From the IMG/VR virus record IMGVR_UViG_3300022745_000107, positions 1 to 34,991 of that record: a stretch of DNA of 34,991 nucleotides; one strand, written 5' to 3'. The position numbers and the translations under genes were made by a program. Of the stretch, positions 7,682 through 31,787 are shown one piece after another. Every line of letters begins with the position of its first letter. Position 1 is the stretch's first letter. The DNA comes from a virus. The notes under the pieces were generated by a model. It did not search any database. It worked only from the letters and a program-made list of their open reading frames with translations, and was not told the origin of the DNA.

Positions 7682-9957
7682 GCGCGCGCAAGGCTTCGGA
7701 CTCGCCGACTGGTCTGGGAATCCTCGGTCAACCGTTGATCAATGCGGGTGACCGCAATGTCGGCCGCCTGGTTGGCAATCTCCGCCCGGAGGGATTGATC
7801 CAACGAAATATCGATCATGATCCGGCCACCGCTCCCGCCAGCCAGGGCGGAAAGGCCGGCAGTGCTGACCAGGCTAACGTCACTGCTACCCGCCCGACCC
7901 GAGACTGCCGGAACGCCACCAAAGTTCGTCGACCGCGGCTTGCTCAACACCGCCAGCGTTTCGCGGCCGGCCTCGCCCGCGACGACGTTGTGCCGGGGGA
8001 AATAGGTGGCCGAATCCAGATCAAAGGCACCGTTGACGCCCCCGGATGCCATCATGCGCGGGAATACCCCACCGTTGGCAGCCGGAAACGCAGATTGGCC
8101 GGACTCCCCGACGGTGCTGGTGCCACCGCCAGCGAACCCAAACGCGGCCCGGAGGGCGCGCAGGATGAGCAGTTGCAGGATCATCTCCGCGACCTGTTTC
8201 AGGAATGAGGAGGCAAACTCCTTGAACGCTGCCCCGGCATTCTTCCAGTCCGTGACCATCGTCACGATCGCGTGGGACATCGATCCGGCGAAGTTGGTCT
8301 TGATCGACTCGCCCAGGCGTTTGTACTCCTCGCTTTGCTCCCGCAGCTTCTTCACCACCTCGGCATGTTCCTGGGCGGCGGCTTCCTGGATTTTGTAGGA
8401 GGCTTCCTTCCGGAACTCGACCAGTTCCTCCTCGGTCATCTTGCCCTGGGCGACCAAGTCTTGATAGAGACTGATCCGGACCTCGTATTCCCGCTTCGCC
8501 TGCACCATCCGTTTGTCGGCGGAGTAGGTCGTGGTGATTTGCAGGTTTCGCTCAAAGTCGGCCAGTTCGGCGTTCAGCTCTTGCTTCCGGGTCGCGTCGG
8601 CCTCCTCCATCGCCCGCAAATGCTCGGCTTGCCACGCCAGCCGCTTCTGTTGCTCGACCTGCTCCTCTTTCGCCTGGACGATCGCATTCTCCGAATCTCG
8701 CACCTGGTTGTTGATGACGATCATCCGGTCGCGCGTGTCGGCGTCGACCTTGCCCAGTTCGGTCAGTTTCTCGATCTGCGCTTTCCGCTCTTCGAAGTTC
8801 GCATCGATGACCGCCCGTTCCTTCTCGTACCCGTCAAGGATATCAATCTCCATCTTTGCCTGAAGGCGGGCGAGATCCGAGACCGCTTTGAGCTGCTCCG
8901 GGCTGGGCGCGGTCACTTCTGGAGCCGCAACAGCCTCGGGACGGCGTTGGAGTAATTGAACGCCCGCGGTGACGGCGCTGGCGCGTCGGAGCCGGGCCGC
9001 ATCAAATTCGTCGTCCTTCAGCATCCGCCCCTCCCGGATGCCCTGATCCGCCTGGGAAGCGATCAACTCTTTGAGGGCCGCGCGGATTTGCCGTTGGCGT
9101 TCAACGCTCTTCTCAATTTTCAGCTCCGCCTGCAACAACTTGTCCAACCGCTCCGCATCCAACTTGGATTGGGCATCGTTGTAGGAGCTGATGCCAGAGG
9201 TTTTTGGACCATCCGGAACCTTCAATTCCTTGATCAGATCCCGCAGCTGTTTGAGGACCGGAATGAGCGCCGGAACGATCGTTGATCCGATGTCCTCTTT
9301 GAAGTCACCCCAGGCCTCTTTCAGCATCTTCAGCTGACCGGTGAAAGTCTCGGTATCACCGCGGGCCAAGCCGCCGAACCGGGTCTGAATTTGACCCAGC
9401 ACCGATTCGAGTTTCTTGGCGTTGCTGGCGGCTTCATCGATCGAGAAACCATAACGGCTGAAGATTCCGACTTCGCCAGTAATGGCCCGGCCAACCATGT
9501 TCGCCGCCGTTGCCAGATCGACCCGGAGACCGGAGGACAGATCGAGCACCGCCTCGGTGAGGGTTTTGATCTCGTCTTTGGTGGCCCCGAACGATATCAG
9601 CTGGGCCTCGACGTTGAGGATCGCCTCATCCCCATTCACCGTCACGTCCCGCAGCGATTCGGAAAGCGCCTTGAGTTGGTCGGCGTATTCCGTCGTGTAC
9701 TTGCCGCGGGCCCGGAGGACACCCGCCAACCGATTTGCTGATTCCTCACTCTCCGCGAACGCGGCCACGGACTCTTTGACGAAAGACGCGATCTCATTCC
9801 CGATGAAAGCACCCACGACCGCGGCCTTGAGCTTCTCCACCGACTCCGTGACAGCGGCGGCCTGGGCTTTCAGGTCACCAAGTTCCTTGGTGACCTGTTG
9901 CGCCCCGGTTCCCGTTTTTTCAACGGCGATTTCGACCCGCGTTTTTAAGTCGCTCAT
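7678..9957 (-). CDS. Tail tape measure protein
   Basis: The protein has 759 residues, mostly helical. The N-terminal portion (MSDLKTRVEIAVEKTGTGAQ; SVEKLKAAVVGAFIGNEIAS; LAGVLRARGKYT) is typical of tape measure starts. Residues about 190-260 include LKMLKEAWGDFKEDIGSTIV and PALIPVLKQLRDL. A long charged coiled-coil runs through about 380-560, and a hydrophobic segment follows (KQVAEMILQLLILRALRAAF), then a Gly-rich NGGVFPRMMASGGV region seen in lambda gpH-like proteins. It sets tail length and passes through the tail during DNA entry. Its size suggests a tail of roughly 110 nm by the usual ~0.15 nm per residue, an inference. The ATG overlaps the -1 frame chaperone stop as ATGA. Confidence 0.9.
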   Translation of the reverse strand: MSDLKTRVEIAVEKTGTGAQQVTKELGDLKAQAAAVTESVEKLKAAVVGAFIGNEIASFVKESVAAFAESEESANRLAGVLRARGKYTTEYADQLKALSESLRDVTVNGDEAILNVEAQLISFGATKDEIKTLTEAVLDLSSGLRVDLATAANMVGRAITGEVGIFSRYGFSIDEAASNAKKLESVLGQIQTRFGGLARGDTETFTGQLKMLKEAWGDFKEDIGSTIVPALIPVLKQLRDLIKELKVPDGPKTSGISSYNDAQSKLDAERLDKLLQAELKIEKSVERQRQIRAALKELIASQADQGIREGRMLKDDEFDAARLRRASAVTAGVQLLQRRPEAVAAPEVTAPSPEQLKAVSDLARLQAKMEIDILDGYEKERAVIDANFEERKAQIEKLTELGKVDADTRDRMIVINNQVRDSENAIVQAKEEQVEQQKRLAWQAEHLRAMEEADATRKQELNAELADFERNLQITTTYSADKRMVQAKREYEVRISLYQDLVAQGKMTEEELVEFRKEASYKIQEAAAQEHAEVVKKLREQSEEYKRLGESIKTNFAGSMSHAIVTMVTDWKNAGAAFKEFASSFLKQVAEMILQLLILRALRAAFGFAGGGTSTVGESGQSAFPAANGGVFPRMMASGGVNGAFDLDSATYFPRHNVVAGEAGRETLAVLSKPRSTNFGGVPAVSGRAGSSDVSLVSTAGLSALAGGSGGRIMIDISLDQSLRAEIANQAADIAVTRIDQRLTEDSQTSRRVRSLARA

Positions 9958-10307
9958 ATTCCAATTGCCGCTTTGAGTTCTTCCGGGGATCGGGGGATTT
10001 GTGATTTCCCGACGGTGCGCTCTGGCACCCCTTTGACTCGATCCTCCAGCGACCAAAGGAACTGCTTTACCTGCTCCCCTTCGGCTTGGGCGGCCCGAGC
10101 GATCATGGTCAGGTCAATTTGTTGCCTGGCTTCCTCCCGCATCAGGAGTCGGTCGAACTGGTTGAGCCTTTGGAGGGACCACTCCCGCGCTTCGGCGTAC
10201 CCGCACCGGACGGCGCGGAGTTCGAGGAGTCCGGAGTTGCTCCATTGGTCGTCCCAGCTGGGGATGGGGGCGGGAGCGACGCCTTCGGGGCGTTCTCCCT
10301 CTCCGCG
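9954..10307 (-). CDS. Tail assembly chaperone, -1 frameshift extension (GT-like)
   Basis: These 117 codons have no plausible start of their own and are open in the -1 frame relative to the upstream chaperone gene. Reading CCCAAAC at 10313-10307 with a -1 slip joins 92 codons of the first frame to this extension, giving a product of about 209 residues. The sequence looks like a genuine helical protein (WSLQRLNQFDRLLMREEARQ; QVKQFLWSLEDRV), whereas the zero-frame tail is low-complexity. Its stop overlaps the tape-measure ATG by four bases, the same layout as lambda G/GT and H. The extended protein would bridge tail tube and tape measure during assembly. Confidence 0.8.
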   Translation of the reverse strand, partial: RGEGERPEGVAPAPIPSWDDQWSNSGLLELRAVRCGYAEAREWSLQRLNQFDRLLMREEARQQIDLTMIARAAQAEGEQVKQFLWSLEDRVKGVPERTVGKSQIPRSPEELKAAIGI

Positions 10308-10582
10308 TTTGGGTCGGCATACCCAAACACGATCTGAGTCACGAGATTTTGAAGCGCGTGCATGTCCGTCACGTTGCACCCAGTGAAGTCCCGCGGGCCG
10401 CAGACAGCATCCATGAGCGGCTCAACGTCCCCCGCTTTGGGTCCGTCTGCGTACTGTTGGGCAACTCGAAGCTGCTCCTTCCAAGGCAAGAATCGGCACA
10501 CCACATGGAGCGTGCTGCCATCGATCACCCGCACGGGGTGGGTGATCTGGCCGGCCGTGATATGCTGAGCGGTAATCTTCAT
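10142..10582 (-). CDS. Tail assembly chaperone, short form (G-like)
   Basis: This 146-residue zero-frame product follows the tube protein and an unknown small gene. The first ~92 residues look folded (GQITHPVRVIDGSTLHVVCR; LPWKEQLRVAQQYADG; DMHALQNLVTQIVFGYADPN). After the slippery site the frame is Ser/Pro/Gly/Thr-rich and looks unstructured, as often happens when a frame is kept open only by overlap. Position between tube and tape measure, and the -1 extension below it, identify it as the G component of a G/GT pair. It acts in the cytoplasm of the producing cell and is not expected in the virion. Confidence 0.75.
   Translation of the reverse strand: MKITAQHITAGQITHPVRVIDGSTLHVVCRFLPWKEQLRVAQQYADGPKAGDVEPLMDAVCGPRDFTGCNVTDMHALQNLVTQIVFGYADPNAERENAPKASLPPPSPAGTTNGATPDSSNSAPSGAGTPKRGSGPSKGSTSSTDS
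10307..10328 (-). promoter_or_regulatory. Programmed -1 frameshift site (CCCAAAC) within a perfect hairpin
   Basis: On the minus strand, bases 10313-10307 read C CCA AAC in the zero frame, a canonical X XXY YYZ heptamer. The heptamer is the 3' arm of a perfect 8-bp inverted repeat: GTTTGGGT at mRNA positions 10328-10321, loop 10320-10315, ACCCAAAC at 10314-10307. Shifting back one base enters the open frame that runs to the tape-measure start. Having the slip site inside the stem rather than upstream of it is unusual. Confidence 0.8.
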
Positions 10583-13077: not shown

Positions 13078-15141
13078 TTAAGGATTGAGGTCAGAGCGGG
13101 TGCGGGATGAAAACTCGACGAGACCGGCCGCCGCCTGGGTAATCGCCGGACGGTAATTGCCCTGGGCGTCGGTGTCGGCGTAGCGCAGTCGGGCGCCGGT
13201 GTAATTCGCGGTGGAAACCGTGGCGTCCAGGTACAGCGGGTTTTGGGCCGTCGGCGCCGAAAACCAGTTGCCGGTGAACCGACCCGAAAAATTAACGAAC
13301 GGCGGCGAATCCAGACTGGGTCCCCTGATCACCATCGCGACCACCATCGCATTGCCATGACTCCGGCACGCATTCCGTACCGTGTTGTTTGCCAACAGCA
13401 GCCGGCCCACGTTTTGGGCATCCAAAAAGCGACCGGCCAGATCCGTCGCCACGTTTCCGGTTATGATGGTTTCCGTAGCCGATTGAGCGGCCTCAATCAT
13501 CAGGCGGAAAGCATCCCCACTGCTTTCGAATTCCGAGGTGCCAAGCCCGTTGATATCGTTATCCCGAATCTTCGCGGAGCGAAATGCACGCGCGATGACC
13601 GCCGGGCCGTAGTTGGTCCTGACCGAATTGCCGATGAACTCCACCGCAGTGGCGCCGTAGCTGACCAGGCAACCGGCTTCCTCGTCTGGACTGCCGGTGC
13701 GGAATCGGCTGTTGGTCTGGACGAAGCGATTTCGATTTACCGCTACCAGCGCAAATTGATCTGGGCGGATATCCCCGGACGCACCGACTTCAATTGGAAC
13801 GATGGCGCAATCTTCAAAGAGGTTGTCCTCCACCACCATTTCGGTGGCACCACCGGAAAGCCACAGCACGGACGGCGTCTGATCGGGAAACATCGCCAGA
13901 TTGGGTATCCCGAACCGCGAGAATCGATTGCCCCGCCAAACGACCCGCCCCGCGGCGGATCCCTCGTTTGAAAGGATCCGTCCCCAGCGCGTGATATCGG
14001 CGAAGGAATTTCCCGCCAGCTCGATGTTCTTCCCGCCTTGGATGATCCAGCCGGCATCAATTGGGAACGGTTTCACGGCCGGATTTCCCGGGGAGTTCAA
14101 CCCGCTCCAGGCGTTCCCGGTGAACCGGACGCCATCGACCGTGCCCACATGCGCAACGCCCGTGTCATAGATCCCAAAAAGGCCGGCCCCACCCGGAACG
14201 ACATTGCCACTGACGACCACATTGGTCAGTCCGGCGTTCCCTCGAACCGCCTGGCAATAGATGGCCAGCGCAAAGCGGCCGGAGTTCGAGTTCGGATTCA
14301 GCGTCACACCGTCGGCTTCCGTGGCGAAAACTTTCGTCCAACAGGTATTGTTGGCGATCAGACTGTTGGCGGCGAAGGCACGCAAGGAACTGACCACGAT
14401 CGCGTCATCTCCGGCCTCGCTGTAATTACCGATGATCCGTACCTCCCGGCAGTCGGTCGCATGGATGCCGTCCTGGCCGCCCAGGTATTTCCGGACGCCG
14501 GCCACGCGGCGATTGTTGCAAAATCCATTGTAGACCCGGCACGACGTAATACTGACGTTTTGGCAAAGTTCGACCGCAAGCCCCCACATGATCCCGTTGG
14601 TCACGGTCAGATTGCGGATATTCAGGCCGGCCAGATCCGAGGCGTAAAAGGCATGGAAGGCGCCGGTCACCTCGGGCTTTTCAAAGTCCCACTCCGTCGC
14701 ATGCTGGGAATTCTGATCGATGATCCCGACTCCACCGCCATCAATGCTGACGTTCCCGGCCTCAGGAATCCCAAGGCCATCCCGGATGGTGCCGTTGTGA
14801 TCATTGTAGGTCGGACTGATGGCCAAGACGGTGGTATTGGTACCGTCGATGTTGCGCAGCCAGCCGAGACAACGGATCGCGATGTTTCCCCCGCGCACAT
14901 AGATTGTGCTGCCGACCGCGTATCTGCCCGGAGGGATTACCACCTCTGTGCCTGGTCGCCGCAACGCCCAGGCAATGGCGGCGTTGATCGCCGGTGCGTC
15001 ATCGGTCTTCCCATCACGACGGGCGCCCCAATCGAGCACGTTGGCTTCCCCGGCCGCCAACGACCAAGAGTCGGTCACTTCAGCGGACTGCACCCGAAAA
15101 AAGCTAAACAGAAAGAGAATGGAAAGGAGGAGTCGTTTCAT
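13078..15141 (-). CDS. Secreted pectate-lyase-superfamily beta-helix protein
   Basis: This 687-residue protein begins with a clear signal peptide: MKRLL, a hydrophobic core (SILFLFSFF) and a likely cleavage after VQSA. Residues about 31-70 carry the Pectate_lyase_3 signature (NVLDWGARRDGKTDDAPAIN, then IPPGRYAVGSTIYVRGGNI). A long right-handed beta helix follows with repeated xxVxxNxxx-type coils (VRIIGNYSEAGDDAIVVSS; VVVSGNVVPGG; VEFIGNSVRTNYGP). It could act on polysaccharide or be a structural spike. A signal peptide is unusual for a virion part made in the cytoplasm, so export by the host is likely. Embedding between capsid and connector genes means it is transcribed with the head genes. 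Confidence 0.8.
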   Translation of the reverse strand: MKRLLLSILFLFSFFRVQSAEVTDSWSLAAGEANVLDWGARRDGKTDDAPAINAAIAWALRRPGTEVVIPPGRYAVGSTIYVRGGNIAIRCLGWLRNIDGTNTTVLAISPTYNDHNGTIRDGLGIPEAGNVSIDGGGVGIIDQNSQHATEWDFEKPEVTGAFHAFYASDLAGLNIRNLTVTNGIMWGLAVELCQNVSITSCRVYNGFCNNRRVAGVRKYLGGQDGIHATDCREVRIIGNYSEAGDDAIVVSSLRAFAANSLIANNTCWTKVFATEADGVTLNPNSNSGRFALAIYCQAVRGNAGLTNVVVSGNVVPGGAGLFGIYDTGVAHVGTVDGVRFTGNAWSGLNSPGNPAVKPFPIDAGWIIQGGKNIELAGNSFADITRWGRILSNEGSAAGRVVWRGNRFSRFGIPNLAMFPDQTPSVLWLSGGATEMVVEDNLFEDCAIVPIEVGASGDIRPDQFALVAVNRNRFVQTNSRFRTGSPDEEAGCLVSYGATAVEFIGNSVRTNYGPAVIARAFRSAKIRDNDINGLGTSEFESSGDAFRLMIEAAQSATETIITGNVATDLAGRFLDAQNVGRLLLANNTVRNACRSHGNAMVVAMVIRGPSLDSPPFVNFSGRFTGNWFSAPTAQNPLYLDATVSTANYTGARLRYADTDAQGNYRPAITQAAAGLVEFSSRTRSDLNP

Positions 15142-17394: not shown

Positions 17395-19533
17395 TCATTT
17401 TTCACCTCCCGCCGCTGCCCAGGTGCGGTAATCCAAGAACTCGGTTGGCTTCAGGCAACGGTATCCCGCTTGGGCATCACCCACGACGGCCAACACGGTG
17501 CAACGGCAGTTGATCACGTTGCCCGGCGAACCCTTCGGATCGCCCGGATGATCCAGATCCTCACCCCCCACCAAAAAGGAATCATCGATCGGGATGGGAT
17601 CGGCCATCGTATAGGTCTCCTCCGCCTGAAGATGAGCCGGGCGGGTGCCCTCCAAATTTGAGGCGAGCCAAGCCTTGTACTTCACGCCACTTTCCTTCAT
17701 GCAGCTGAAGCGGCCGGAGTTGATCGCAATGCCGACTTCGGTTTGCGCGATGGTTTCCGCCCGGTGATTGGTCGCGTCGGTGAAGACCTCTTTCACCCGC
17801 TCAGTCAGGGCGGCGAAGGATTCGCCATTTTTCAACCCTTCGTCCAACTGCGCCTTGATTCGCTCGAAGGTCGTGTCGTTGATGCCCCGGATTTCCGAGC
17901 GGCGTTTTGCCAGGAACTCCGAAGCTTTGGCCGGGGCCAAGCTGAACTCGTTCCCCAACTCCCGAGCGGCCTGCGCCACGCCGAAGTTGAAGTCGTCCAT
18001 TAACAGTTTCCCGAGGCTCGCTTCCAGCAAAGCATCTTCAGTCGGTCCATTCCATAAATCGTCGGCCAGACCCTTTTGCAGCGCTGTTGCATCGGCCTTG
18101 CTTTTCGCCGCGAGTTTGGCGAGGACGCGGGTCCGTTGGTCAAAGAAGAACCGGGAGGAACGCGACCGCAGCCGGGAGACGGCCGCCCGAATTGCCTTCG
18201 CGAAGGCGTCCGAACCTTTGCACTCATGCGGGCGGTCAGCCTTCAGAGCGGCAGCCAGGGCTCGGAATGGATCGCTTGATTTGGCCGGGGTTGCGGGCGG
18301 GACTTCCGGCGGGGGAAGCGGGGCCGCATCCACTGCTTCCAACGAAAACGGCTTGTACCAGGTATTGCCCCAGGGCTGATCCTCGAAACCCAGATCCAAA
18401 ACGCGGTTCGCTTCGTTGAAGCTCACCCCGATGGAGCAAACCTTCACCGCCGCATCAATGCGCGCCCGGCGAGCGCTCACCATGATCGGGTGGGCGTCGA
18501 TGTCGTGGGCGGCCACCAACCCGTCGATCATGGCGATCGCTTCGAATGCGGCATCCAACCGTTCGACGAGCGGCGCCAGATTGTTGTAGATGAACCCGAC
18601 GTGCTGTTCTTCGCCGTTGGACCGATTGGCGTTCTCCACGAATCCCAGCAGCGCTTCCGGGACGCCGAAGATGGCGCAGATTTCCTGCCGGGACGCTTTC
18701 CGCGCTTCGAGGAACTGGGCATCTGCGGACGTGATGGCCGGCTTCTCCACCTTGCAGCCGTTGGGGAGAAACAACGGACGGGCAGCGTTGCCGGTGCCCT
18801 TGCGGCGTTCAGCCAGGGCGGCCTTTACCTGCGCAATCTGCTCGTCGCCCAAGTTCTGGTCGGACGTCACGAGAAAGCCCAGCTCGCCGTTGCTCTCAGC
18901 AAGGCCTCGTTGAAAGAGCCCGGCGGCCCGATCCGTCGCGGCCGCGAGCCAAGCCACTTCCAGCGGTGCCAAACCACCCCAGAAATGGAACGGATTGGGC
19001 GCCGCAATGAAGATCAGCTCTTCCGGCAGGAACAGATTCGACGGGGAAAGATCCTGGAAGGCGGCGCTGTACCGCCACCCCCGCAGGTACTGGGCGGCGA
19101 AGATAGGCGTAACGCGATCCGATGGCAGAACCACCAGGCTGGCGGGGATTTGTGCCATGGGGCCGCGCAAACTGACATAGCGGCCGGAGCGATCGAGCCC
19201 CGCAATAAAACACCGCCCACGGAGCAACAGCCAGGCGAGCGAGAGTTCCCAGAGGTCGGTGCGGGAAATGTACTCGTGGGGACGGTTGAAAAGATCCACC
19301 ACCGGGCCGGACTCCACCACGGTGCCCCCCTTGTCGGATGTCTTCAACACGTACGGCAATCGCGAGACGTTGCGCGCGAGAAATTGCACGCACGAGTACA
19401 CCCAGGCGGATTGCTCCAACGGGTTCGTCATCGTCGCGCCACCCGCGCTGGTGGATCCTTGCAGGAAGGCCTGCGTTGGGCTGATCCCCCGTAACGCGGT
19501 CCAAGCTGCGGAAAAACGTTCCTTGAATTTCAT
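17395..19533 (-). CDS. Portal protein fused to Mu F-like head morphogenesis domain
   Basis: This 712-residue protein joins two head functions. Residues about 30-400 are an HK97-type portal (NPLEQSAWVYSCVQFLARNV; LYRYVSLRGPM-type region; EICAIFGVPEALLGFVENAN near 275-300). After a Pro/Ala linker (about 400-430), residues about 430-712 are a Mu gpF/SPP1 gp7-like domain with RSEIRGINDTTFERIKAQLD, AETIAQTEVGIAINSG and the closing GNVINCRCTVLAVVG. In most phages these are adjacent separate genes. The ATG at 19533 shares its first base region with the terminase stop (TAATG overlap); an upstream in-frame start would run into the terminase gene. Confidence 0.9.
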   Translation of the reverse strand: MKFKERFSAAWTALRGISPTQAFLQGSTSAGGATMTNPLEQSAWVYSCVQFLARNVSRLPYVLKTSDKGGTVVESGPVVDLFNRPHEYISRTDLWELSLAWLLLRGRCFIAGLDRSGRYVSLRGPMAQIPASLVVLPSDRVTPIFAAQYLRGWRYSAAFQDLSPSNLFLPEELIFIAAPNPFHFWGGLAPLEVAWLAAATDRAAGLFQRGLAESNGELGFLVTSDQNLGDEQIAQVKAALAERRKGTGNAARPLFLPNGCKVEKPAITSADAQFLEARKASRQEICAIFGVPEALLGFVENANRSNGEEQHVGFIYNNLAPLVERLDAAFEAIAMIDGLVAAHDIDAHPIMVSARRARIDAAVKVCSIGVSFNEANRVLDLGFEDQPWGNTWYKPFSLEAVDAAPLPPPEVPPATPAKSSDPFRALAAALKADRPHECKGSDAFAKAIRAAVSRLRSRSSRFFFDQRTRVLAKLAAKSKADATALQKGLADDLWNGPTEDALLEASLGKLLMDDFNFGVAQAARELGNEFSLAPAKASEFLAKRRSEIRGINDTTFERIKAQLDEGLKNGESFAALTERVKEVFTDATNHRAETIAQTEVGIAINSGRFSCMKESGVKYKAWLASNLEGTRPAHLQAEETYTMADPIPIDDSFLVGGEDLDHPGDPKGSPGNVINCRCTVLAVVGDAQAGYRCLKPTEFLDYRTWAAAGGEK

Positions 19534-20927
19534 TAGTCGAGCCAGATGGGTTCCCGGTTGCCACTCTCCTTGCCGGCATGCTTGGCGAGTGCGAGCGCCC
19601 AAAATTCATCGGCGTGACCGTTCGCGCCCCGATCGGCGGCAAAGCGAATGTTGCCGCTGGCGGTGGTCTCCTTCCGGATGGCACGCAACGCCGCCCGAAT
19701 CTTCGGTTGTTGTGGGATCCGGATGGAGCGGTCCTCAAACGCAGCCCGGACCGGATAGGCGAGTTCCTCTTTGACGGGTCCGGAGAACGTGACGCCCTCC
19801 ACGCGGTACTTCCCAAACCGTTCGGTTGCCCGCTCGGCGAATTGCATGCCCAGCCCCGTCGCATCAATGCAGACCCGACGGCATTTTTCGAGCCACGGAT
19901 AGATGGCCGCTTCTTGCGCGGCGAACGTCTCTTTGCTCAGTCGCAGGACCTGCCGGGTGTGCAGCACGTCCCCGACCTTTTCCACGATCCACAGCACCGT
20001 CAGATCCTGGTGGCGGCCGATATCGAGGCCACCAAAGAGCGTGCCGCAGGTCGGCGGGAGTTCGTTGATCGCGTATTCCCACGAGTCCGTCGGGCGATAT
20101 TCACAGGCCGCAATCTGGTCGTACGTCAGGAAGGCGGAATTGTCGTCCGCCGGATTGCAGCAGTATTCCTGCTGGAAGCTCTCTTCATCAGCGCAACCGG
20201 ACCGGACCCAGTCAAAATAAGATGCTTCGTCGAACTGTTGCCGCGGATCGCTCTCGGCGAGTTTTGACTGGAGCTTGTAAAGGAAGCCGTCTTCCAAGGC
20301 CCGTTGCAAGGTGACCGTGTGCAACGAGAAGCCCTTGGGATTCCCCTTGTGCTTGATCTCCTCCACCAACTCGTTGAAGAAGTTCGCCGTTCCGCGGTGC
20401 GTGGAAATGATCCGCAGCGACCCGCCCCAGGTGATACCGGGATAGGCGATGGTGTAGAGCTGCCGGGGGTCATTGTGCAGCGCGAACTCGTCTAGGATGC
20501 GATTGCCCCGCTTGCCCGCCTGGGCGTCGGGATTGCTCGTCATGGAGTGGGTCTCCATGCCCGAGGCATACCGGATCACGTACGCCTTGTTACCCTTGTC
20601 ATCGATCACCCGTTCGCCCAGATCCTGCGCGCCCTTGTCGTAGATCTTGGCAAAGGCGTTGCAGTCGCGAATGAAAAGGATGGCCTGTTCCTCATCCCGG
20701 GAACTGACCCAATCGTCGGTGGGGGTGATCCCCGACCGGGCGGCCGCCTCTTTGCTCAACGATTGATCCCGCACGAGCCCCAACGCGGTGGCCCACGAGA
20801 AACCGATTTGCCGGCTCTTTTCGACCAGCACCAACCGCGAGCGGTCGGCGACGTAATCCGATTGGTAGGGCAACAGCAGGCTGTCCTTGGCGGGCCGGAC
20901 CTTCGCATTCCCGACGAACTTTTTCAT
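19533..20927 (-). CDS. Terminase large subunit (Mu gp28-like)
   Basis: This 464-residue protein has an ATPase half and a nuclease half. LVEKSRQIGFSWA (residues 34-46) is the deviant Walker A segment typical of Mu gp28-type terminases, and RILDEFALH (143-151) is Walker B. The RNase-H-like nuclease has GGLDIGRHQDLT with Asp302, VCIDATGLG with Asp355, and GHADEFWALALA with Asp441. It pumps DNA into the prohead and makes the packaging cuts. In Mu the headful starts at the prophage end and includes host DNA, which would fit the short foreign flanks here. Confidence 0.93.
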   Translation of the reverse strand: MKKFVGNAKVRPAKDSLLLPYQSDYVADRSRLVLVEKSRQIGFSWATALGLVRDQSLSKEAAARSGITPTDDWVSSRDEEQAILFIRDCNAFAKIYDKGAQDLGERVIDDKGNKAYVIRYASGMETHSMTSNPDAQAGKRGNRILDEFALHNDPRQLYTIAYPGITWGGSLRIISTHRGTANFFNELVEEIKHKGNPKGFSLHTVTLQRALEDGFLYKLQSKLAESDPRQQFDEASYFDWVRSGCADEESFQQEYCCNPADDNSAFLTYDQIAACEYRPTDSWEYAINELPPTCGTLFGGLDIGRHQDLTVLWIVEKVGDVLHTRQVLRLSKETFAAQEAAIYPWLEKCRRVCIDATGLGMQFAERATERFGKYRVEGVTFSGPVKEELAYPVRAAFEDRSIRIPQQPKIRAALRAIRKETTASGNIRFAADRGANGHADEFWALALAKHAGKESGNREPIWLD

Positions 20928-25177: not shown

Positions 25178-26086
25178 TCAGTTTTGGATGAACGAAACCA
25201 AGGCGGAAATCACATCACACGCAAGCGCCGGCGGGACCGAGTTTCCCAAAAGATGGATCGCCAATTTGCGATTATCAGGCAACGGATAGGTGGCAGGAAA
25301 GCCCATGGCATCCCGGTATTCATCCACCGTCAACATGCGCATCTTGTCGCCTTCCACGAGGCCGTAGCGATCCCGCGTTGTGATCGTACCGATGGGCGCA
25401 TGAATTGTCCGTCCGCCTTTGCAGGACGAATAATAGGGCAAGAGAAAGCGATCGCCGTGATCGTGTCGGCCTTTGGCAGCCCGGTTCCGCGTCTTCAGAC
25501 ACAGGTTTTTGATGGGCGTTTTTGCCGGAATATCCCGCAAAAATGAAATGGCCGGTCTATGCATCCGTTTGGGCAGATCCAACGGCTCTTTCAAAGTCCT
25601 GCAACGGGTGGCGCATACGAAAACCCGATGACGATGTTGTGGCACCCCGGAATCAGCTGCATCGGCAATGGTTTCACACACCGAATATCCGAGGGTCATC
25701 AATGCAGCCCGCCAGTTGAGATAAAGACGCCAGTCCAAAAACTCGATGACGTTTTCGACAATTATCGCATCTGGAAGGTGCATTTCGACCGCGTCGATTA
25801 CTGCCCAGGCGGTGGATCGAGCGGCATCATGATGGGGCTTATCTTTGCCACGACCGCGGCTGTGGCCTTGGCAACAGGGACTGGCGAGCAGCAAATCATG
25901 ATGGGGAACCATGCTCCAATCGACCCGGTGCAAATCTTCGCAGGCATGCTCGACGCCCGGGAAAGCCTTCTGATGCGTGGTTACCGCGTCGGGCCAATGA
26001 TTGGCGGCCCAGACAACGTCAACTCCGGCCATCTTGGCACCCAACGAAAAACCGCCAGCACCGGCAAATAGATCGATGGCCCTCAT
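25178..26086 (-). CDS. Orphan DNA (cytosine-5) methyltransferase
   Basis: This 302-residue enzyme has the ordered C5-methyltransferase motifs. Motif I is DLFAGAGGFSLG near the N-terminus, motif IV SPCCQGHS contains the catalytic Cys, motif VI is IIVENV, motif VIII is QHRHRVF and motif IX lies in RMLTVDEYRDAMGFP. Motif X is GNSVPP near the end. The usual SPPCQ reads SPCCQ, which keeps the catalytic Cys and Gln. The target-recognition region lies roughly between residues 160 and 240. No restriction nuclease is next to it, so it probably protects phage DNA from host restriction. An ATG at 26086 is preferred over the GTG immediately before it. Confidence 0.93.
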   Translation of the reverse strand: MRAIDLFAGAGGFSLGAKMAGVDVVWAANHWPDAVTTHQKAFPGVEHACEDLHRVDWSMVPHHDLLLASPCCQGHSRGRGKDKPHHDAARSTAWAVIDAVEMHLPDAIIVENVIEFLDWRLYLNWRAALMTLGYSVCETIADAADSGVPQHRHRVFVCATRCRTLKEPLDLPKRMHRPAISFLRDIPAKTPIKNLCLKTRNRAAKGRHDHGDRFLLPYYSSCKGGRTIHAPIGTITTRDRYGLVEGDKMRMLTVDEYRDAMGFPATYPLPDNRKLAIHLLGNSVPPALACDVISALVSFIQN

Positions 26087-26089
26087 CAC

Positions 26090-28507: not shown

Positions 28508-28654
28508 TCAGTTCTTTGGTTGGGCGGTTTCGTTCGGGTTGGTTGGGGCGTCGATCTCGTGGCGGCGGTGGGCAATCAGGGGGCAAAATGCCAGACCGAT
28601 CACGATACTGGCCCAGACCAGGCTGATGAGCCCGGCGAGGATTCGGAGCATCAT
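28508..28654 (-). CDS. 48-residue single-span membrane protein between B and Gam
   Basis: On the minus strand a short open frame begins MMLRILAGLISLVWASIVIG, followed by LAFCPLIAHRRHEID and an Asn/Pro/Thr-rich tail, 48 residues in all. It overlaps the B stop as ATGA and ends four bases before the gam ATG, exactly filling the gap between them. One N-terminal transmembrane helix (about residues 4-26) is visible. Role unknown; such tiny early membrane proteins may modify host membrane processes. Confidence 0.6.
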   Translation of the reverse strand: MMLRILAGLISLVWASIVIGLAFCPLIAHRRHEIDAPTNPNETAQPKN

Positions 28655-29763
28655 CGGGCACCCCCAAACTGTTGACGTTCCCGCAGCGTGTGGCCGGCGA
28701 AGATGTGCTTTTCGTTCAGCTCCTGCCGTTGATCGGAGGCGAGCCGGGAACCGAACCGCAACGCCTCGACGACGTACCGGAGGCGGCCCAAATCACGATC
28801 GTTTGCCCAGGCAACCAGGACCTCCGTCAGCTTGTCGCTCGGCTTTGGAATGTACTGCCGGGCAATCGGCAGGACATCGTCTTCGGTGAGCGTGTCCGTC
28901 AGCACGAACGGCTTCGATGTGCGGCCCGTGATTTGTTCGTACATGTACGAGTTGCCCGCCTGGGTCAGCTGTTGGCGCACCCGGACCGTGCCCAGGTAGC
29001 TGAGGCTGCATCCGGAAATGTCGCGGATGCGGCGGATCATTTCGAGCGCGACCGGCATCTTGCCCGACGTGGGGAGGTAATGCTGGATCTCGTCGACGAT
29101 CAGAATCCGATTCGGGTTGAATGCGCGAATGACGCTGTCGAGCATTTGCGTGGCGCTGGCGGTCCGACTCACCCCGACGGCGCCGGCAATCAGGCGAAGC
29201 AAGCTATTGGCGCCACCGATCGGAAGGCCTTCGACAAACACGGTGCGGCCCATGCCATTGCGCCGTTGCCACTCTTTGGCGCAGGCGGTCTTTCCGACGC
29301 CCGATTCGCCGAGAATCATCGTGCAACCGTTGCTGCCCTGGGTGTAGTCCAGGATCCATTCCATCTGGCGAAAGGTGCGATTGTCCGCGAAGACGGCCGC
29401 CTGCACTTTGCGGCGTTTCTCCCACAAGCGTTTGAACGACGCAATGGACCGACAGACTTTATCGAATGATCCTTCGTAGGTCCCTTTGAGGACTCGGAAC
29501 ATCGTGGTCTTGTCGTAGTTCACGGCGGCGGCCAGTTCCGTCCATCCCATCCCTTCGGTGATGGCGATTTGGTGCAGCCAGGCGAGCAGGTCTTGCTGTT
29601 CCTGCGGCAGGTGTTTCCAATTCGCCAAGTTCATTGGGATTGCAATCCCGGTATTGGCGGCGTTGATTTGCCCGAGTTCCGACGGATCGATTCCGGCATC
29701 CATTGCGGATCGCAGTTGTGGCGGAAGCTCCGTTTCGAGCGTTTCGAGGTTTTCGACTGGCAT
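28651..29763 (-). CDS. MuB-like AAA+ ATPase, transposition target selector
   Basis: This 370-residue protein has an N-terminal HTH-like domain (GMGWTELAAAVNYDKTTMFR, about residues 71-90), then an AAA+ core. Walker A is GESGVGKT (152-159) and Walker B is ILIVDEIQH (220-228); a sensor-like SLSYLGTVRV follows at about 253-262. MuB forms ATP-dependent filaments on DNA, delivers target DNA to the MuA transpososome and protects the phage's own genome from self-insertion. It follows transposase A directly, as in Mu. Confidence 0.92.
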   Translation of the reverse strand: MPVENLETLETELPPQLRSAMDAGIDPSELGQINAANTGIAIPMNLANWKHLPQEQQDLLAWLHQIAITEGMGWTELAAAVNYDKTTMFRVLKGTYEGSFDKVCRSIASFKRLWEKRRKVQAAVFADNRTFRQMEWILDYTQGSNGCTMILGESGVGKTACAKEWQRRNGMGRTVFVEGLPIGGANSLLRLIAGAVGVSRTASATQMLDSVIRAFNPNRILIVDEIQHYLPTSGKMPVALEMIRRIRDISGCSLSYLGTVRVRQQLTQAGNSYMYEQITGRTSKPFVLTDTLTEDDVLPIARQYIPKPSDKLTEVLVAWANDRDLGRLRYVVEALRFGSRLASDQRQELNEKHIFAGHTLRERQQFGGAR

Positions 29764-29810
29764 AGGATTTTTACTGTTCTCGGGGTTGTTCAGGCCCCGT
29801 TTTTTCTGTG

Positions 29811-31787
29811 TTAGGTGAGCGGGTTCTGGCCGGTGATTTCGGCCATCTCCTGCTCGGAAATTAGGGAATCGGATTCCGCGGACGCTCGCGGGCGGTAGCC
29901 GTCCAGTTCGTCCGGGATCTCCACCGTGGCGGCACGGGAGACGCGGCGGGCGGTTGCGGTCTTTTCCTTGGCGGCGGTGGTGGCAGCGGCCAGGCGGTCG
30001 CCGTTGTCAGCCGTGGTGGCGTCCACCGGAATCACGCTCTGGCGGAGATAGTGGGGCGCCAAGCTGATGTGCTCGTCGCGCACATACCGGCGGTAGTCGG
30101 CCAGGGATTGTGAGTTCGCAGCGAACTGTTCCTTGGTGCCGTCGAATCGGTGGATCGGGGCGACGTATTGAACCGAGCCCAAATAGCGCCGGGTGTCGCC
30201 AGCCAGGATGATCGCGTCGGCCTCGGGGTGATCCTGATTCCAATAGACGAACACCGTCCGGCCGGCCAACGGCAACAGCACATCGGCGTTGCGGTAGAGA
30301 TGCGCGACCGAGAAGCGGCCGGATCCGACGACGACGCGCAGCTGGCCATCGCGGCGGACCTGCACCTGGGATTTGGTGGACCGGTACAACCATTTTGCCG
30401 AGTCCGGGAAAATGGCGAAGGACGGGTTGTCGAGCGCCCATTTCTCGTCGGGGCTCATTCCCCGCAGGATCACGCCGTCGTTCCGCTCGGCGTTGAGAGC
30501 CTGCATCGTGGCCATGACCTCGTTCTTGAGGTCGGAAAGGTGCAGCAGATGCCCGCGGGGATGGATCTGGTCCGTCTTGATCGCCTGGAGGAGTTTCTTC
30601 GTCGCCTCGGGGCAATCCTCGCGTTCGTTGCGGCCGGCGTAGCCCGGCAACCGGTCACCCGCGGCCTGGAACTGCGCGAATCGTTCCTCGATCGGTTTTG
30701 AGCGGGGCAAATGTGAGTGCCGCAGGATGGCACCAAACGTTCGGAGGCCACCGAAGCGCTCGTCGTCACTGATGCCGGTGCGGTGGCCGCGGACGGCGTT
30801 CCCGCGCCAGATACCGCCTTCGAAGAGGTATTCGGGATAGGTGCCGTACTGGTCTGCAACGTCTCCAATCCCGCCCCACACGTCGTCCGAGTTGTACTGA
30901 CCATTGGATCGGATCACCAGGCGGGCCACGAGCCAGCGGAGAGTGCCGCAATCGAGGAAAGCGAGCAGCTGCGGGCGGACGACCAGGAAGCCCTTGGCGT
31001 TGGGCCATTCCACCCAGCAATAGACGTTCATCGTCATGTCATCGGCGGTGACGACGCGCCCGGCCTTCACCTGCGACCAGTCGGCCGGGGTATAGGGCGA
31101 GTTGAGCCGATAGGCCCGGTTGCCCTGGGCGAGGTCTCGCGCTGACGGCGACACGCGAAGGCTATCGCGCACGCTCCGTGGAACGTAGCTCTTGCTGGCG
31201 TATCCGGAGTGGAAGGCGTCCCGCATATCTGAAGTCGCGTCGGGATGGGTCACGATCACCGAGCGGAACGCACGGGCGAAATTCTGACGTCCTTTGACTC
31301 CCAATGTTCCGTGTTCAACTGATGCGGCCGCAGCCTGTGCCAGGATCTCGTCAGGGATGGCGACGGCGCGGCGCCCGACGACGCCTTGCTTCTGTTCGCA
31401 GAGTCCGTCCGTGCCGAACTGATGATAGCGCTTCACCCAGCGCCGCACGGCGCTCTTGGATCCGCCGGCAACACCGTCTTCCCGGAGTTCTTCGGACACG
31501 ATCTGCAAAGCCATTTCCGCGCCGGTGCCGTTGCGTTGCAATTCGGCCACCCGCAGCACGGCCCGTTCCCGGCGCAATACCTTCGCGCGTTGCTCGGATG
31601 AATGGGTCAGATCCGCGTAGGTGACCGCGGGGGAATCGCCCCCGCCCGTCGACTGGATCGACTCACTCAAGTCGATCCGCCCCAGTCGATCGGGCGAGGG
31701 CAAATGGATCTCCCCAACCGCCGCGTCGGGCGTCCGTTGGTGCGTGGTTTCGGTCGGCATGGTCGTGTTGGGGAAAAGGGAGGTCAT
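29811..31787 (-). CDS. MuA-like DDE transposase
   Basis: This 658-residue protein carries N-terminal HTH regions (about 85-120, including SKSAVRRWVKRY), an RNase-H-like core and a beta-barrel domain (about 475-550). The first catalytic Asp is in VVTADDMTMN (249/250) and the Glu in SKPIEERF (368/369). The second position reads YLFEGGIWRGN (Glu323) where MuA has Asp in a DN motif, so the triad may be D-E-E. The ATG at 31787 overlaps the upstream stop (ATGA); a second ATG at 31760 is possible. It cuts the TG/CA ends, joins them to target DNA and drives replicative transposition with MuB. Confidence 0.93.
   Translation of the reverse strand: MTSLFPNTTMPTETTHQRTPDAAVGEIHLPSPDRLGRIDLSESIQSTGGGDSPAVTYADLTHSSEQRAKVLRRERAVLRVAELQRNGTGAEMALQIVSEELREDGVAGGSKSAVRRWVKRYHQFGTDGLCEQKQGVVGRRAVAIPDEILAQAAAASVEHGTLGVKGRQNFARAFRSVIVTHPDATSDMRDAFHSGYASKSYVPRSVRDSLRVSPSARDLAQGNRAYRLNSPYTPADWSQVKAGRVVTADDMTMNVYCWVEWPNAKGFLVVRPQLLAFLDCGTLRWLVARLVIRSNGQYNSDDVWGGIGDVADQYGTYPEYLFEGGIWRGNAVRGHRTGISDDERFGGLRTFGAILRHSHLPRSKPIEERFAQFQAAGDRLPGYAGRNEREDCPEATKKLLQAIKTDQIHPRGHLLHLSDLKNEVMATMQALNAERNDGVILRGMSPDEKWALDNPSFAIFPDSAKWLYRSTKSQVQVRRDGQLRVVVGSGRFSVAHLYRNADVLLPLAGRTVFVYWNQDHPEADAIILAGDTRRYLGSVQYVAPIHRFDGTKEQFAANSQSLADYRRYVRDEHISLAPHYLRQSVIPVDATTADNGDRLAAATTAAKEKTATARRVSRAATVEIPDELDGYRPRASAESDSLISEQEMAEITGQNPLT

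Follow-up and report, generated by a model that had tools for sequence, protein, structure and literature searches.

Is the small open reading frame (ORF) that precedes the tape-measure gene of this virus a tail assembly chaperone gene extended by a −1 programmed frameshift, the means by which phage lambda makes its tail assembly chaperones from G/GT (PMC5009743), and does a hairpin lying over the slip site govern the shift? The initial annotation of the 34,991-base virus record (the window, considered here at its full length) had proposed both: a slip at C CCA AAC into an open −1 frame, and a perfect inverted repeat that masks this site until it is melted, timing or limiting the shift, in a geometry different from that of known systems with structure downstream. 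We integrated reading-frame and codon-usage analyses with protein structure prediction, RNA folding and a comparison of related phages, and we treat the frameshift and the hairpin as separate questions.

Gene organization and reading frames

The tail region is read on the minus strand, where the order is tail tube, a 77-aa ORF, G, T and tape measure (Table 1). The locus lies directly 5′ of the tape-measure gene and 3′ of the tail tube gene, the position expected of a G/GT pair, and the window shares with lambda a small ORF between these two genes.

Table 1. Features of the tail region of the window, with the evidence for each.
Feature	Positions	Strand	Evidence or remark
Tail tube protein (Phage_tube_2), 341 aa	10858..11883	-	Domain match, 2.6e-13
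Small ORF between tail tube and G, 77 aa	10825-10592	-	
G, putative tail assembly chaperone ORF, 146 aa	10142..10582	-	Gene order, ORF, structure model
Slippery heptamer C CCA AAC, 0 frame of G, codons 91-92	10313-10307	-	Codon-usage change point at 10303
Upstream hairpin, slip site in its 3′ arm, function doubtful	10304..10331	-	Folding; absent from relatives
Predicted downstream stimulatory hairpin, 7 nt 3′ of the heptamer	10272..10299	-	RNA folding
ATG in the T frame overlapping the G stop (TGATG)	10140..10142	-	Rival start, 62-aa separate product
T, −1 frame extension, 117 aa, ending in ATGA with the tape-measure start	9954..10307	-	Homology to the L009 −1 frame
Tape measure protein, 759 aa	7678..9957	-	PHROG 27166, 3e-16

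The heptamer is found exactly at the coordinates where the initial annotation had placed it (10313-10307, minus strand). The codons before and at the slip site, GAC-CCA-AAC (10315-10307), set it in X XXY YYZ phase inside G. From 10307 the −1 frame runs open past the G stop to the TGA at 9956-9954, which overlaps the tape-measure ATG at 9957 (ATGA). A slip would join 92 residues of G to 117 residues of T, and the resulting 209 aa agree with the product of about 209 residues that had been predicted. Scored with the codon usage of the window's other genes, the frame switches from 0 to −1 at codon 10303, two codons beyond the heptamer, and the GC content at the three codon positions of the overlap likewise tracks the −1 frame (0.75/0.53/0.80 versus 0.54/0.80/0.74 in the 0 frame). 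The 0-frame tail of G past the slip site (10304-10145, minus strand) is rich in Ser, Pro, Thr and Gly, as it is in the relative L009 (see below), and looks like a by-product of coding in the −1 frame.

At the protein level, AlphaFold predicts order in G up to about residue 88 and disorder from there on, consistent with a folded chaperone domain that ends just before the slip site. The likeness to lambda thus extends to an X XXY YYZ site close to where the folded part of G ends, to T in the −1 frame and to a fusion that ends near or at the tape-measure start. The two differ in the heptamer, which is C CCA AAC in the window and G GGA AAG in lambda, and in that the window protein has no detectable similarity to a named chaperone family: G matched no Pfam or PHROG chaperone family. 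Among its weak fold matches in BFVD some are named tail assembly chaperones, with E-values that are non-significant, and a PDB fold search with the G model returned nothing useful.

An AAC codon in the A site is expected to slip less in Escherichia coli than AAG. Haloarchaeal G-T sites use AAC as the second slippery codon (PMC5009743); they share this codon and the gene pair with the window and differ from it in the first codon and in the domain of the host. A literature search for CCCAAAC together with frameshifting retrieved unrelated papers only.

Related phages and conservation of the −1 frame

Direct searches found no close homologue of G, the tape measure protein or the capsid protein in IMG/VR and none of G in phage records, after which relatives were found via the terminase. 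A weak G match (L005) was dropped, as it sits in an unrelated ORF. The IMG/VR contig 3300034073_004938 (L004/L009) carries tail tube, G, a −1 frame T and tape measure in the same order as the window. Its G aligns with that of the window at 26% over 89 aa (E 1.5e-5), with coinciding slip sites; its heptamer is A AAA AAA, and its T lies in the same −1 phase. Between the two T sequences, identity is 40% across 60 aa; the pairwise E-value is about 1e-9, and a tblastn search of 2.8 Mb gave 1.4e-4. Hence the product of the −1 frame is conserved as a protein, and the arrangement that encodes it is kept in relatives.

At the equivalent place, A AAA AAG occurs in L181, L183, L184 and L189, and A AAA AAC in L186, L190, L288 and L289. 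The G of L189 has a match to PHROG 1442, a family annotated as tail assembly chaperone (9e-7). A scan of 65 tape-measure matches, mostly distant, gave no heptamer overlap for most of them; the few overlaps that it did yield include L196 and L203, which carry C CCA AAA/T. AAC as the second slippery codon is common around the lineage (L186, L190, L288 and L289).

Could T instead be a separate 62-aa protein, made by reinitiation at the ATG at 10142, with the −1 frame upstream of it open by chance? The TGATG overlap with the G stop is a common arrangement for translational coupling, this ATG is in the T frame, and L186 likewise has an ATG overlapping its G stop. Conservation of T, however, begins about 40 residues before this ATG, the earliest plausible start in the T frame: T residues 16-74 align with L009, and the ATG corresponds to T residue 56. 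By codon usage the −1 frame sets in at about 10303 and not at 10142, and no clear Shine-Dalgarno sequence precedes the ATG. Were the two parts separate genes in homologues, each would have its own start; in L009, the closest homologue, and also in L189, the T frame holds no ATG, GTG or TTG past the slip site. We therefore consider reinitiation very unlikely.

The reading of this locus as a −1 frameshift of G/GT type held up in the homology of T, the codon-usage change point, the codon-position GC and the heptamers of the relatives. Given a heptamer, its phase, an open frame, the conservation of T in the −1 frame, a frame change at the site and the gene order, all of which can be read from the DNA, the locus is very probably a lambda-type G/GT tail assembly chaperone pair with a −1 frameshift.

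Structures flanking the slip site

In free RNA the region is predicted to fold as two adjacent hairpins, one on each side. The downstream one is GC-rich (GGGAG.ACGCC-CCGAA-GGCGU..CUCCC, 10299-10272, minus strand) and is separated from the heptamer by a 7-nt spacer, within the 5-9 nt that are usual between heptamer and structure (PMC7618472) and as in a canonical −1 signal. The folding energy over +6..+50 is −16.1 kcal/mol (z −1.9, P 0.04 versus shuffles), a modest gain. GC-rich stems occur at a similar distance in several relatives, most clearly in L190 (z −3.3); in most relatives they are individually non-significant, given the GC-rich DNA. The initial annotation had overlooked the hairpin at 10299-10272, a conventional downstream structure, and its claim of a different geometry therefore falls.

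The inverted repeat over the slip site is itself as described: GTTTGGGT (10328-10321) and ACCCAAAC (10314-10307) pair perfectly over 8 bp around a loop of 6 nt, and in the predicted fold the stem grows to 11 bp, one of them a G-U pair (10331-10321/10314-10304). Is this stem exceptional? We resampled the codons upstream of the slip site synonymously, keeping the amino acids and using the codon usage of the window. A perfect stem of at least 8 bp on the slip site arose in 3% of these re-codings (P = 0.03), whereas the energy of the stem is ordinary, being equaled or bettered in 21% of them (P = 0.21; 0.12 versus shuffles). The window holds about nine distinct perfect inverted repeats of at least 8 bp with short loops; counted with nesting, there are 14 such repeats of at least 8 bp, versus 6.1 expected. 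The upstream stem is only marginally unusual.

Nor does it recur. Six relatives that share the system lack the stem; the pairing of their heptamers with upstream sequence is 0-0.13, versus 0.98 in the window. This absence, in relatives that are distant and mostly have A-rich heptamers, shows that the stem is not general to the system; it does not imply that the stem is useless in the window phage. The exact hairpin pattern was present in nine IMG/VR contigs, and in none of them (0/9) did a G-like ORF of some length run into a long −1 overlap of the kind in the window.

Upstream hairpins that modulate −1 frameshifting are already described, in the SARS-CoV element and in model hairpins (PMC3639245, PMC6321510), though wholly 5′ of the site. 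The window hairpin resembles these attenuators in its place, 5′ of or at a −1 slip site, and in that a second structure follows the site. It departs from them in that attenuators are stable hairpins wholly 5′ of the slip site that refold behind the ribosome, whereas here the 3′ arm of the hairpin is the heptamer itself; any effect is putative. Judging from ribosome dimensions, with CCA and AAC in the P and A sites, the ribosome or its exit path would enclose the 5′ arm, and the stem would be open during the slip.

These observations bear on the proposal of an upstream stem that hides the slip site and, on melting, times or limits the frameshift. In its favor, the stem, perfect over 8 bp and 11 bp long with one G-U, takes in the whole heptamer, a stem of that length falls on the site in few synonymous resamplings, and stable hairpins placed upstream can dampen −1 frameshifting by 70S ribosomes (PMC6321510). 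Against it stand the heptamer pairing in the six relatives, energies that neither resampling nor shuffling sets apart, the fact that perfect 8-bp repeats are not rare in the window, and the mode of action of known attenuators, which refold behind the ribosome (PMC3639245), while this stem could refold only after the ribosome has left the site. Masking thus has neither conservation in the six relatives nor an energy signal nor a workable geometry to recommend it, and we judge it highly improbable. We give as little credence to a stem that sequesters the slip site and thereby sets the G:GT ratio, for instance via ribosome spacing or arrival, on top of a conventional downstream hairpin.

A milder role, in which the upstream stem tunes the ratio slightly without masking the site, for example through a ribosome pause ahead of it or through competition with other structure, fits the prediction that it forms together with the downstream hairpin in free RNA, and structures flanking slip sites have been discussed as bidirectional control (PMC10885494). 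The same lack of conservation and of an energy signal makes this, too, unlikely. The upstream stem is most likely incidental; its effect, if any, would be a slight change in how ribosomes reach the site or in efficiency. The sequence does contain a hairpin over the slip site, but nothing here supports it as a regulatory device.

Other features of the record

A perfect inverted repeat longer than that at the slip site, GGTCACCAAG-GAA-CTTGGTGACC (10 bp, 3-nt loop; 9895-9873, minus strand), lies about 60 nt inside the tape-measure gene. Four further observations, all on the minus strand, concern the gene content of the window. Portal and minor head (head morphogenesis) domains are seemingly fused in one 735-aa ORF (17395-19602), whereas they are split in many phage records. 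Between the capsid and head-tail connector genes, 13078-15141 encodes a 687-aa right-handed beta-helix/pectate-lyase-like protein, in the position of which L004 has a 1092-aa ORF. An AAA/TniB-like ATPase (28651-29763) adjoins a 658-aa protein with weak helix-turn-helix matches (29811-31787), and this pair (28651-31787) suggests a Mu-like transposable phage. A C-5 cytosine-specific DNA methylase is encoded at 25178-26089 (5e-43).

Proposed mechanism and implications

For the G/GT pair, we infer that slippage occurs, how often it does, what the downstream hairpin contributes and what the proteins do, as follows. Most ribosomes would translate the 146 aa of G and end at its stop. A smaller share would slip one base back at C CCA AAC, probably aided by the GC-rich hairpin 7 nt downstream, and would continue in the −1 frame to give the 209-residue G-T fusion at a low level beside G. 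A long and a short form of the tail assembly chaperone, made through such a programmed slip, are common among tailed phages. By analogy with lambda (PMC5009743), G may coat the tape-measure protein, and the T part may recruit tail-tube subunits.

The idea of a masking stem would matter only if an experiment gave an effect, and the sequence evidence does not favor masking. The frameshift itself would add a diverged phage lineage, with C CCA AAC as its slip site, to those that use G/GT frameshifting; the relatives of this lineage come from IMG/VR contigs and from genome assemblies, Verrucomicrobia among them.
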